A stretch of 64,000 nt of DNA from Balneolaceae bacterium (lineage in GTDB: Bacteria; Bacteroidota; Rhodothermia; Balneolales; Balneolaceae): NCBI GenBank assembly GCA_020832415.1, contig JAFIES010000122.1, positions 1 through 64,000 of the forward strand. Direction: 5' to 3'. Both the position numbers and the translations under genes were made by a program. Shown piece by piece: positions 957-10,218 of this stretch; positions within the stretch are counted from its first letter, which is position 1, and every line of letters starts with the position of its first letter. The notes under the pieces were generated by a model, which saw only the letters and a list, made by a program, of their open reading frames with translations, made no database searches and had not been told where the DNA came from.

Positions 957-1889
957 TTACTCCGGATGGTCAGCGTTCACTTTAGAATGTATCCATTCTA
1001 AAATAGTAACCATAACCTCTTCCCGATTGGTTTCATTGAGCATCTCGTGGCGCCCGCCGGGGTATAGCTGAACGTCCAGTTCATGAATTCCTGAATTCCG
1101 AATAGTTTTTTCAAGATTTTTGATGCCTTTACCCATATTAGAAACCGGGTCATGATCACCAGACAGAACCAAAATGGGGATCTCTTTTGAATGATCGGCA
1201 AACGGTTTGTGAGAATGAATTGCTTTAATCCCCGTAAACAACTGGTAATAAAACGAAGTGGTGCATGTAAAGCCACATAAAGGATCATCGATGTACAGAT
1301 CAACCATTTCGTTATCACGACTAAGCCAGTCAAATTCTGTTCGGTTTGGTTTGAATGTTTTGTTGTAAGCTCCAAAGCTCAGTTTCTCGAGCAGGGGGCT
1401 TTTGGCATCGGCTCCAAAAACTTTTTTAAGGATTGATGAAATCAGAATACCGGCATGCAGCGTGAATGGAGGCTTGCCATTACTGCCTGAATAGATGATG
1501 CCATCAGGATGAACTTCAGAGGTTTGTAAAAGTCGTTGGAGCAGAAACGATCCCATACTGTGCCCTAACATAATAACGGGCAGATCAGGGTATGTCTCTT
1601 TCAGATGTTGGTAAACATCATGAACATTTTCTGTAAGAAGCTCAAAGCCTTTCTCTTCTTCAACAAAACCGAGTTGATCCGGATCCGTTTTTCCGTGTCC
1701 ACGGTGATCGTGTGCAATTACAACGTACCCGCTTTTCGTAAGAAAATTAGCGAATTGATTATACCTGCCGGCGTGCTCAGCCATACCATGTATGATCTGC
1801 ACAGCAGCCACAGGCTTCCGGGGAGGTGTCCATGTGTACAGATATAATGATTTACCGGTTGAATCTTTTAAAGCAGAGGATGATTTCAT
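957..1889 (-). CDS. Alpha/beta hydrolase, monoacylglycerol lipase-like
   Basis: This 310-residue protein belongs to the serine aminopeptidase S33 / monoacylglycerol lipase branch of the alpha/beta hydrolase fold. The oxyanion region is IIHGMAEHAGRY (about 32-43), the nucleophile is Ser111 in GHSMGS, and the likely acid and base are Asp247 (SGDHDP) and His281 (GGRHEM). The family cleaves monoacylglycerols or lysophospholipids; the true substrate cannot be read from sequence. There is no signal peptide, so it is cytoplasmic. First gene of a two-gene minus-strand unit with the OB-fold protein. Confidence 0.85.
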   Translation of the reverse strand: MKSSSALKDSTGKSLYLYTWTPPRKPVAAVQIIHGMAEHAGRYNQFANFLTKSGYVVIAHDHRGHGKTDPDQLGFVEEEKGFELLTENVHDVYQHLKETYPDLPVIMLGHSMGSFLLQRLLQTSEVHPDGIIYSGSNGKPPFTLHAGILISSILKKVFGADAKSPLLEKLSFGAYNKTFKPNRTEFDWLSRDNEMVDLYIDDPLCGFTCTTSFYYQLFTGIKAIHSHKPFADHSKEIPILVLSGDHDPVSNMGKGIKNLEKTIRNSGIHELDVQLYPGGRHEMLNETNREEVMVTILEWIHSKVNADHPE

Positions 1890-2027: not shown

Positions 2028-2104
2028 GCACCCGTAGCTCAACTGGATAGAGTACCTGACTACGAATCAGGCGGTTACAAGTTCGAATCTTGTCGGGTGT
2101 ACCA
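2028..2104 (+). tRNA. tRNA-Arg(ACG)
   Basis: Full cloverleaf: acceptor GCACCCG pairs with CGGGTGT, the D arm is GCTC..GAGT, the anticodon stem-loop is CCTGA-CTACGAA-TCAGG with anticodon ACG (read as ICG, for CGU/CGC/CGA), and the T arm contains GTTCGAAT. The CCA end is encoded (2102-2104). It opens an arginine tRNA cluster that includes broken copies downstream. Confidence 0.93.
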
Positions 2105-2132
2105 TTTTATTGACATAGGCAAATTGCCGTAA

Positions 2133-2196
2133 GCGCCCGTAGCTCAACTGTCCCGAAAGCATTCGGGATGACTTCGGATCAGAAGGTTTGGGGTTT
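2133..2196 (+). pseudogene. Broken tRNA-Arg(TCG) copy
   Basis: The start GCGCCCGTAGCTCAACTG is identical to the intact tRNA at 2305, and TGACTTCGGATCAGAAGG plus TTTGGGGTT also match. Between them the D-arm 3' half and part of the anticodon stem are replaced by the perfect palindrome TCCCGAA-AGCA-TTCGGGA. After GGGGTT the T arm and acceptor 3' strand are missing, so no cloverleaf can form. This is a dead duplicate of the neighbour tRNA. Confidence 0.8.
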
Positions 2197-2304
2197 GGTG
2201 CATGAGCAACTTTTTTAATTGAATTGAAATACTGTACGGACTTGGTTAATGACCGATGGTCAATAAATGAACTATTGGAAATCATAAATCAATAATTAAC
2301 AATT

Positions 2305-2378
2305 GCGCCCGTAGCTCAACTGGATAGAGCATCTGACTTCGGATCAGAAGGTTTGGGGTTCGAATCCCTACGGGCGTA
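2305..2378 (+). tRNA. tRNA-Arg(TCG)
   Basis: Complete cloverleaf: acceptor GCGCCCG pairs with CGGGCGT (first pair G-U), anticodon stem-loop TCTGA-CTTCGGA-TCAGA with anticodon TCG (Arg, CGA), and T loop GGGTTCGAATCCC. The encoded end is ACA rather than ACCA, so the CCA must be added by enzyme. A Rho-independent terminator follows at once. Parts of this gene are repeated on both sides. Confidence 0.92.
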
Positions 2379-2382
2379 CAAA

Positions 2383-2419
2383 AAGCTTCGATTTTTAAAA
2401 AAAGATCGAGGCTTTTTTT
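2383..2419 (+). terminator. Rho-independent terminator after tRNA-Arg(TCG)
   Basis: AAGCTTCGAT pairs with ATCGAGGCTT (one G-T pair) across an A/T-rich loop, followed by a run of seven T. Confidence 0.8.
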
Positions 2420-2471
2420 ATTTGTGTTATTGTTGAAGGGAACAGAGCGTTGATGTTCCGAAGCAGTGCTT

Positions 2472-2538
2472 CGGGGTTCGAATCCCTACGGGCGTACATA
2501 AGAAGCTTCGATTTTTAAAACAGATCGGAGCTTTTTTT
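2472..2538 (+). repeat. Second copy of tRNA-Arg 3' end plus terminator
   Basis: A 27-base exact copy of the tRNA-Arg(TCG) 3' end (GGGGTTCGAATCCCTACGG through GCGTACA) sits 118 bases after the original and is followed by a copy of its terminator (2503-2538) and of the spacer TTTATTTGTG. It has no 5' tRNA half, so it is not a gene. The block looks like a tandem duplication or the scar of integration at a tRNA 3' end. Confidence 0.85.
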
Positions 2539-2593
2539 ATTTGTGCTGGTTCTTGAGGGGAACTGAGCGTTGATATTGCGAGGCAGTACTGTG

Positions 2594-2620
2594 CGGGTCA
2601 AATTTTTATGGGCGTTTACA
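2594..2620 (+). repeat. Third, decayed copy of tRNA-Arg 3' end
   Basis: CGGGTCAAATTTTTATGGGC then GTTTACA aligns with the tRNA 3' end with several substitutions, 122 bases after the second copy. The spacer between copies two and three (GGGGAACTGAGCGTTGAT) matches the spacer between the original and copy two, which confirms a repeat unit of about 120 bases. Confidence 0.65.
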
Positions 2621-2623
2621 TAC

Positions 2624-2669
2624 AGGGTTGAGCTGTGATAATTTAAAATCACTACTCAACCCTTTTTTA
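2624..2669 (+). terminator. Rho-independent terminator
   Basis: AGGGTTGAG pairs perfectly with CTCAACCCT, with an inner GTGAT/ATCAC pair around an A/T loop, and six T follow. It closes the tRNA cluster. Confidence 0.75.
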
Positions 2670-8277: not shown

Positions 8278-10218
8278 TTAATGGCCGGTTACTTCCCCGT
8301 CTTCTTCTATGGAGCGCACACGTTCGTCTTTCGCAAGTTGCTCAATTTGAGACGTATTGGCATAAAGAAGAAAAATATTATGCATCAATGTTTTTGTGAT
8401 GGTTACCGGCAATGAGTCCGGTAGCGTACCCTCTTCAACAACAATCAGTATGCGATACTCTTCTTCAGGGTTTTCACGCATCTTCAATCTCAGTTCTTCT
8501 GTAATTTTATTCATGAGAGTTGCATTAAGTTGACCTTCACTTGGTTGGTAGCCGGGACCTTTCACAAATCTTCCCGGCATTTTACCGGTATGTGTGCCAT
8601 TTTCCAAAACCTGAATTCCGTTTACAAATACATGCTCAACTCCCGTTGCATACTGGTGGGGATTTTCGAATGTAGCATGGTCCTGAATGGTTTCGGGATT
8701 AAATAGTACGATATCTGCGTAGTATTCCTCTTTCAGAAAACCCCGGCTGTTTAATTTGAGATTTGTTGCGGGTAATCCGGTTAGGCGATATACAGCATCT
8801 TCGAGAGAAATCAATTGCTGATCGCGGACATACATACCCAGCAACCGGGCAAAATTACCCCAGGCACGCGGGTGCATCCGGCGGTTCAGAACATCACCCT
8901 CCGCAGCAAAAGTGCCGCCATCAGAACCAAAACTCATCCAGGGTATTTGAATCTGTCTTTGCACATTTTCTTCACTCATCAAATAATAGATGGCACCAAT
9001 TCTGTTGTTATCCTCAACGGTAAGTTCAACTGCAGTCCGCACCTCATCATCCGATCCGCGGGCTTCCGCAACCTCAGATAGTGTCATTCCAACATATTTT
9101 TGTAGCTCATCACTGCGGAACCCAACAAGTATAATTCCATCTCTGCCACCTGCCATCAGGTAGAAGTTTTCCCATTCGTCCGAGTGGGTTTTTACCTCTT
9201 CAATGATTTGTTCACGTGTATCAGGATCACTCAATCGTTCAATCCAGCGACTGTGGCCGCCATCTTGCGTCCATGGCGGGAAGATGGCGGCAAGGCTTGT
9301 GGCAGCTGCATTGTAAGTATACATGTTTGCTGTAACAGGCTGGCCTGCGGTACGGGCTGCATCAACCATCTCAATCACGGTATCAAGTTTGTGCCAGTTA
9401 TCTTGCCCGGCAGCTTTCAGGTGATGAATTTCTGCATGGAGATCTGCCTCGCGGCCTATGGTGATAAGCTCTTCTACCGATTCAATAAAGCGGTTGCCTT
9501 CGCTGCGAATGTGCGAAATGTACATTCCATCGTATTGGCTAACCACATTTGAGAGCTCAATCAATTCATCCGTTGATGCGTAGAATGCAGGTGCATAAAT
9601 CAGGGAAGTACCCAGCCCCATAGCACCCTCTTTCATCGCTTCTTCCACCAGGTTTTTCATATTCTCCATCTCAGTGGCCGTTGGCTCCCTGTCATCATAG
9701 CCAATTTCATGAATCCGAACGGTAGTAGCCCCAACAAAAGAGCCGATATTGGTGGATACTCCATTCTCTTCCATCCACTGCAAACCTTCACCAAGTGTAC
9801 GCCAGAGGTGCTGGTCGGAATCTTCTTCCCATCGGTCAATCCGCATCTGTTCATTCAGCGGTCCAATTGATGAACCTTCTCCAAAAAGCTCCAGAGTTAC
9901 CCCCTGTTTGATGCCGCTCATTGATCTGCCATCAGCCATAAGCGGATTAGCCCCCCAGCTTAGCATATTGATAAAACCGGGAGCAATTGCCAATCCTCTG
10001 GCATCCACTTCACGATGGGTGCAGATATCCGGCTCAATGCTGCCTATGGTTTTGATGCGGTCATTCAAGATCCCGAGATCTGCTGTGAAACCGTCGCTTC
10101 CGGTTCCGTCATAAACCACACCATTTCGGATGATGACATCATAGCAATGGTTTTCTTGCACAGGGGCAGGCGGCAAGCTCAGCTGTAAAAACAGTGCTAT
10201 GATAAATGTCAGTTTCAT
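8278..10218 (-). CDS. D-aminoacylase-like amidohydrolase (COG3653), secreted
   Basis: A 646-residue protein with a signal peptide (about 1-20), then the composite beta and TIM-barrel layout of N-acyl-D-amino-acid deacylases. Histidines at the beta metal site are visible in YISHIRSEG and AEIHHLKAAG, and the catalytic Asp in FGSDGG. The usual HxH after APGFI is replaced by NMLSW, and the bridging Cys of the GNCG motif by Glu in GEGSS. Such variant forms occur in Bacteroidota; they may use one metal. Substrate is not predictable. The gene starts five bases after the NYN gene ends, so the two share a transcript. Confidence 0.78.
   Translation of the reverse strand: MKLTFIIALFLQLSLPPAPVQENHCYDVIIRNGVVYDGTGSDGFTADLGILNDRIKTIGSIEPDICTHREVDARGLAIAPGFINMLSWGANPLMADGRSMSGIKQGVTLELFGEGSSIGPLNEQMRIDRWEEDSDQHLWRTLGEGLQWMEENGVSTNIGSFVGATTVRIHEIGYDDREPTATEMENMKNLVEEAMKEGAMGLGTSLIYAPAFYASTDELIELSNVVSQYDGMYISHIRSEGNRFIESVEELITIGREADLHAEIHHLKAAGQDNWHKLDTVIEMVDAARTAGQPVTANMYTYNAAATSLAAIFPPWTQDGGHSRWIERLSDPDTREQIIEEVKTHSDEWENFYLMAGGRDGIILVGFRSDELQKYVGMTLSEVAEARGSDDEVRTAVELTVEDNNRIGAIYYLMSEENVQRQIQIPWMSFGSDGGTFAAEGDVLNRRMHPRAWGNFARLLGMYVRDQQLISLEDAVYRLTGLPATNLKLNSRGFLKEEYYADIVLFNPETIQDHATFENPHQYATGVEHVFVNGIQVLENGTHTGKMPGRFVKGPGYQPSEGQLNATLMNKITEELRLKMRENPEEEYRILIVVEEGTLPDSLPVTITKTLMHNIFLLYANTSQIEQLAKDERVRSIEEDGEVTGH

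Follow-up and report, generated by a model that had tools for sequence, protein, structure and literature searches.

Tandem tRNA 3' ends behind a tRNA-Arg gene in Balneolaceae and their possible origin from homing-endonuclease insertions

Introduction

Why should a tRNA-Arg gene be preceded by a broken copy of itself and followed by two further copies of its own 3' end? This arrangement lies near the start of a 64,000-nt stretch of DNA from Balneolaceae bacterium (contig JAFIES010000122.1 of assembly GCA_020832415.1, positions 1 to 64,000 of the forward strand), which as a whole is referred to here as the window. The original prediction for this locus offered two explanations, a used integration hotspot or a slippage array. 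We compared the same tRNA loci in related genomes, as had been proposed, and found both empty and occupied forms. The genomes are mostly draft bins and contigs end in these arrays; genomes and loci of relatives are given by our own numbers.

Structure of the tRNA-Arg locus

ARAGORN and Rfam agree with the prediction of two intact tRNA-Arg genes, ACG and TCG (Table 1). The broken TCG copy between them does have the palindrome described in its D arm, and it is more than the 5' part for which it had been taken, since besides the 5' end a stretch running from the anticodon arm to within the T-stem is retained in 27 of its 28 nt. The 18-nt palindrome pattern has one site in the window (0.00 expected) and seven in the whole genome of 3.94 Mb, and palindromes of the same kind also break tRNA copies in relatives. 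Because the 28-nt spacer behind the ACG gene precedes the intact TCG gene in relative G002 and the broken copy in the window, we assign the broken copy to the ancestral TCG position; the intact TCG gene at 2305 is probably the newer of the two. In another relative, G003 (L047, L002), three tandem 5'-end copies of tRNA-Arg(TCG) lie upstream of that tRNA, and at least two of them have TCCCGAGACGTCGGGA as a palindrome in their D arm; this arrangement mirrors the arrays of 3' ends.

The two extra tRNA 3' ends are present as foreseen, at about 120-nt spacing and with the last one decayed. Both sit in a 116-nt repeat of 72% identity spaced by 120 nt. Their repetition together with a terminator is true of the stems after the intact tRNA and after the first copy, but the array ends in a third, different stem that is probably the native trailer. 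Chance as the origin of the window repeats is excluded by their identities and by their recurrence in relatives. Rfam, searched for known RNAs across the array, gave nothing but tRNA above threshold, no GIY-YIG gene was found in the window, and none of the ORFs listed downstream of the array as far as position 9000 resembles an integrase. The window's own genome encodes five PF00589 genes, none of which is on the window's contig.

Table 1. Features of the tRNA-Arg locus, in positions of the window
Feature	Position	Strand	Remark
Intact tRNA-Arg (ACG)	2028..2104	+	ARAGORN and Rfam
Native spacer from the ACG gene to the ancestral TCG position	2105..2132	+	28/28 nt shared with relative G002 (L036), in which an intact TCG gene comes directly next
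Broken copy of tRNA-Arg (TCG), standing where the TCG gene was ancestrally	2133..2195	+	Agrees with the intact gene over 2133-2150 and 2169-2195; ends in the T-stem at GGGGTT
Perfect palindrome TCCCGAAAGCATTCGGGA in place of the 3' part of the D arm	2151..2168	+	Sole match in the window
Spacer between the broken and the intact TCG gene	2196..2304	+	No blastn match in the loci of relatives examined
Intact tRNA-Arg (TCG)	2305..2379	+	ARAGORN and Rfam
Terminator-like hairpin behind the intact TCG gene (cassette trailer)	2380..2417	+	
Core of cassette 1: GAACAGAGCGTTGATGTT and hairpin CCGAAGCAGTGCTTCGG (2458-2474)	2440..2474	+	Genus-wide core
First extra tRNA-Arg(TCG) 3' end, GGGGTTCGAATCCCTACGGGCGTAC	2473..2497	+	25/25 identical to 2355-2379
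Terminator-like hairpin behind the first extra 3' end	2500..2536	+	
Core of cassette 2, with decayed hairpin (GCGAGGCAGTACTGTGC at 2578-2594)	2560..2594	+	
Second extra tRNA 3' end, decayed	2595..2619	+	In register with the first; 10/25 identical ungapped
Last terminator-like hairpin, differing from the previous two	2624..2669	+	Inverted repeat with arms 2624-2639 and 2648-2663

A hairpin core behind many tRNA genes

Units like those of the window were identified by DNA search in genomes of the same genus, each with the 3' end of the particular tRNA that stands before it. Their common part is a 41-nt hairpin core, AGATCTGAGCGTTGATnTT[GC]CGAAGCAGTGCTTCG[CG], which a pattern scan allowing up to 3 mismatches located in 19 of the 22 same-genus genomes. 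In 13 genomes outside the genus the same scan found the core only as two single matches with 3 mismatches, and the reversed-pattern control gave no match. The exact core together with the universal T-loop motif GGTTCRA occurs in 28 stretches among 84,980 species genomes, nearly all titled Balneolaceae or its genera and including Rhodohalobacter sulfatireducens and Fodinibius halophilus; a single bin, with no more than 'Bacteroidetes bacterium' as its title, accounts for three of the stretches.

The cassettes are ~100 to 175 nt long, rarely 0.5 to 1.4 kb, and the one hairpin core is common to many tRNA types, among them tRNA-Arg (ACG, TCG and TCT), tRNA-Pro (GGG and CGG), Met, fMet, Ala, Asn and Glu. 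The core usually lies 65 to 98 nt behind the end of the tRNA, and after it, for at least 10 tRNA kinds, the 3' end of this very tRNA is repeated, starting at the T-loop. Matching of cores to tRNAs was assessed with 60 non-redundant cores that have a tRNA at most 1.2 kb upstream: the own tRNA's 3' end comes next after the core in 40 of them (with 6 mismatches or fewer in 22), and for 41 no tRNA type matches better than their own. Cores are also found behind tmRNA (ssrA), followed by tmRNA-like 3' ends, at L085, L090, L095, L098, L323 and L324, with the tmRNA itself called in L090, L095, L323 and L324. The core additionally occurs in G021 (L188-L207) and G001 (L101-L104, L207) as a dispersed repeat of ~130 nt, with a left hairpin, away from tRNAs. 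At a contig end in G000 (L040; G000:C80), tandem CAGGGTT repeats precede a cassette starting with a tRNA-like GTGTAC end, and this array runs off the contig.

Such rows might also arise without a mobile agent, from slippage or unequal recombination that duplicates units locally in tandem. The two window units do resemble each other, and many arrays are almost identical internally (L092, L100), so that duplication surely amplifies units. Against it as the origin stand the trailers, which are often unrelated before and after a copy (L036, L043, L092, L099), the empty alleles described below and the presence of the same core behind unrelated tRNAs. Duplication is thus disfavoured as the origin and quite unlikely as the full explanation, and what survives of the predicted slippage array is later tandem amplification only.

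The core is conserved as a hairpin, with 863 of 903 pairs kept and compensating changes, compared to 828 in the best of 1000 shuffles. A conserved hairpin would suit a functional small-RNA array under selection, for which there is a precedent in Escherichia coli K-12, where three tRNA 3' ends from the T-loop on, spaced by 178 nt, follow tyrV and are annotated as the ncRNA rttR. Selection for such an RNA is nevertheless very improbable here, given that cores come and go between species, that terminators precede the copies in the window and that the second window unit is decayed.

The compensating changes, which include the closing pairs, would also suit single-stranded hairpins as the recombining form, either as attC-like cassettes moved by an integron integrase or through Y1 transposition of the IS200/REP type. 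The genus has both integron integrases (TIGR02249, 417 bits) and Y1 transposases, and an HTH and PIN gene pair in one tRNA-Pro cassette (see below) is typical integron cargo. The integron integrase was at first a strong candidate on account of an IntI gene beside smc and of the hairpin core, but it failed on co-occurrence, as the presence of IntI does not track that of the core among genomes, and the repeats beside IntI are ordinary attC-like ones, unlike the core. Y1 transposases (REP/RAYT, IS200/IS605) are missing from core-bearing G006 and G010, the Y1 genes of the window's own genome have no core hairpin beside them, and IS608-like guide pairing of TTGA with TCAA was ruled out by shuffles, pairing between core and T-loop being no better than in these (328 versus a mean of 332). 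We accordingly regard hairpin recombination as having only a slim chance of being correct. The smc-linked integrase adjoins the 3' end of an SMC-like gene at G000:C26:23936-24892 (L160, L167), and integron-type arrays beside IntI are present in relatives (L208, L213, L216).

Empty and occupied tRNA sites

The fMet locus provides both forms of a site. In G018 it is empty, with tRNA, native terminator and flank contiguous. The native flank lies behind three 133-nt core cassettes in G006, and in G000 and G005 it lies behind a GIY-YIG gene and a palindrome-broken tRNA copy. At the locus of the window itself, G002 has a cassette with an unrelated trailer between tRNA-Arg(ACG) and the 28-nt spacer, where the window has none. 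An intact gene upstream and a displaced 3' part downstream are found both in the window (2305-2379 versus 2473-2497) and in the fMet alleles, and this insertion geometry is well supported.

The same geometry, a restored tRNA with a displaced 3' end, is produced by tyrosine integrases, for which the tRNA 3' end serves as att site and extra copies would be the attR of integrated or decayed elements. Att sites in the T-loop are known, for example that of phage Ms6 at tRNA-Ala (PMC1762012), and integrase genes are present ~1 kb behind tRNA-Arg(TCG) in G005, G015 and G023 (L020, L025 and L022, respectively). The cassettes share with tyrosine-integrase elements a duplicated tRNA 3' end, restoration of the tRNA and use of the same target gene in relatives, but differ from them in being units of ~100 to 175 nt without an integrase and in having one core at many tRNA types, at least 10 in addition to tmRNA. 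The short units are gene-less, the gene-bearing cassettes read here carry no integrase, and core-bearing G010 and G021 have two full-length enzymes of Xer size and only fragmentary tyrosine recombinase besides. Ordinary integrase scars are therefore an unlikely source, if one to be kept in mind. The predicted integration hotspot holds in outline, through the empty and occupied alleles and the integrases near tRNA-Arg(TCG) in three relatives, but not in the form of ordinary att scars, because the core is shared by many tRNA types, the units are so short and the gene present in several of the cassettes and next to many tRNAs is that of a small GIY-YIG nuclease.

GIY-YIG genes beside tRNAs

Small GIY-YIG ORFs have a same-strand tRNA 12 to 232 nt upstream in 24 of 46 cases with enough upstream sequence, a sample that was partly chosen; in the subset taken by score alone the tRNA is directly upstream in 10 of 21. 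With 36 tRNA matches across 3.94 Mb, we estimate that about 0.1 of the 46 would have such a neighbour by chance. The tRNA-linked proteins comprise 80 to 95 aa and a GIY-YIG domain only (PF01541), in which the catalytic-type residues Y5, Y16-x-G18, R26, H30 and E63 are invariant in 22 proteins, and lack a separate C-terminal DNA-binding part such as the phage nuclease SegB has. On a tree of the proteins the tRNA type has to change 8 times, against a minimum of 7; shuffling gave a mean of 16.5, and none of 200 shuffles went as low. This clustering could reflect vertical inheritance at orthologous loci, not homing.

The order at these loci is intact tRNA, terminator, GIY-YIG ORF, palindrome-broken tRNA copy and native flank, the palindrome lying in the anticodon loop of the broken copy at the fMet, Gly and Asp loci. 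The ORF lies inside the insert at related loci L136/L279, L284, L285 and L291, and at some loci it extends into the broken copy's 5' portion. In G100 (L354, ~979-1707, minus strand) the end of a GIY-YIG ORF directly abuts the 5' end of the RNase P RNA gene, as others end in tRNA copies; at GIY-YIG loci that lack a tRNA, one RNase P RNA was the only Rfam match.

Arrays with both GIY-YIG ORFs and cores are present at tRNA-Pro (G000, G017) and tRNA-Met (G016, G019). The tRNA-Pro(GGG) cassettes of G000 (L152:12367-14267; G000:C47, minus strand) have a GIY-YIG gene between cores, and cassette 3 of this array carries a pair resembling HTH_17 and PIN_3, similar to a toxin-antitoxin system. G008, G011 and G018 possess GIY-YIG genes and no core within 3 mismatches. 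Most Balneolaceae sampled have 6 to 16 PF01541 matches per genome, compared with mostly 1 to 5 elsewhere in the class, and the same GIY-YIG and tRNA arrangement occurs in some family members outside the genus; it was found at none of 11 high-scoring GIY-YIG loci in two other families. We found no report of GIY-YIG genes beside bacterial tRNAs in the open-access literature, which is weak evidence of novelty.

Candidate mechanism

The best reading of these loci, and one that we consider fairly probable, is that they are insertions of tRNA-targeted homing endonucleases that bring a replacement tRNA 3' end with them, the ORF-less cassettes being derivatives. In the window, short elements would have inserted into the T-loop of tRNA-Arg(TCG), so that the tRNA tails would be displaced 3' ends. 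Each element comprises first a new 3' end for the tRNA, then ~70 nt of terminator and trailer, and last the hairpin core; on insertion the tRNA would be made whole again at the left junction, and the 3' end that it had before would come to lie behind the core. The forms in relatives that carry a GIY-YIG gene between trailer and palindrome would be the autonomous ones: their nuclease would cut the tRNA gene in a loop, and repair would copy the element in (homing). The gene-less cassettes of 100 to 175 nt may then be mobilized and amplified by the same cuts together with ordinary recombination. As the window has no GIY-YIG gene, its array probably consists of derivatives only. Integron integrases, Y1 transposases and tyrosine integrases all fit worse than the nuclease as agent. 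We infer from the comparisons above and below that the nuclease would be this agent, that it may cleave at the T-loop and that the short cassettes may depend on it. The GIY-YIG inserts, with a palindrome mostly in the anticodon loop, and the core cassettes, which join at the T-loop, may also be two systems that share targets.

A broader and more tentative proposal, which at present we would sooner doubt than accept, is that of a chromosomal tRNA cassette system in which units of ~100 nt to 1.4 kb that end in the common hairpin core join at the T-loop GGTTCRA and accumulate in tandem behind many tRNAs and tmRNA, restoring the tRNA each time. Such cassettes would occasionally carry cargo (a GIY-YIG gene, the HTH and PIN pair) and would be moved in trans by the small single-domain GIY-YIG nucleases, with no integrase.

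Relation to known systems and implications

The homing reading has parallels in phages and in fungal mitochondria, and the interpretation of the window locus as gene-less derivatives draws on both, namely on the T-loop motif of SegB and on the mitochondrial geometry. SegB of phage T6 is a GIY-YIG homing endonuclease that cuts inside tRNA genes; the motif it prefers reads RAWTSGAAC, which on the opposite strand gives the T-loop sequence GTTCSAWTY (PMC13096335). Tandem amplification of the tRNA-segB segment needs the nuclease activity of SegB and involves microhomology between the tRNA 5' end and the segB 3' end (PMC13096335). The loci described here resemble those of the free-standing T-even SegB in that a GIY-YIG nuclease is encoded beside tRNAs, in that the SegB motif corresponds to the T-loop where the core cassettes join, and in that some ORFs end inside a tRNA 5' copy, comparable to the microhomology at segB. 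The motif match helped to suggest the nuclease as the likely agent. Unlike SegB, the proteins here are single-domain, encoded on bacterial chromosomes and known from sequence, and what is repeated is a tRNA 3' end, whereas with SegB it is a whole tRNA plus the nuclease gene.

In fungal mitochondria, mobile endonuclease ORFs are associated with duplicated gene 3' ends in atp6 of Allomyces and in atp6, atp9, cox2 and nad3 of Glomus (PMC3630166). These ORFs (LAGLIDADG, and GIY-YIG in atp9) bring a working replacement 3' part, the native 3' part being displaced downstream (PMC3630166). The bacterial loci likewise have a replacement 3' end in front of the endonuclease ORF and the native 3' end behind it, but the targets are chromosomal tRNA genes instead of mitochondrial protein genes, the displaced copy has palindromes and there are gene-less tandem cassettes. 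This geometry is known from fungal mitochondria, and we found no report of it at bacterial tRNA genes in the open-access literature. The tpr repeats that give RttR at E. coli tyrV are also tandem tRNA 3' ends that start inside the T-loop downstream of a tRNA; unlike the window units they are 178 nt long, lie at one locus and are without the shared core, and the 2 kb inspected around them contain no GIY-YIG gene.

The homing reading, if true, would connect tandem amplification with GIY-YIG cutting of the T-loop in a way open to direct test, and it would suggest an origin for the similar repeats at E. coli tyrV. It would also explain the tandem tRNA tails and broken tRNAs of the Balneolaceae, a bacterial family whose tRNA genes would have been colonized by homing endonucleases that bring their own 3' end, as in fungal mitochondria.
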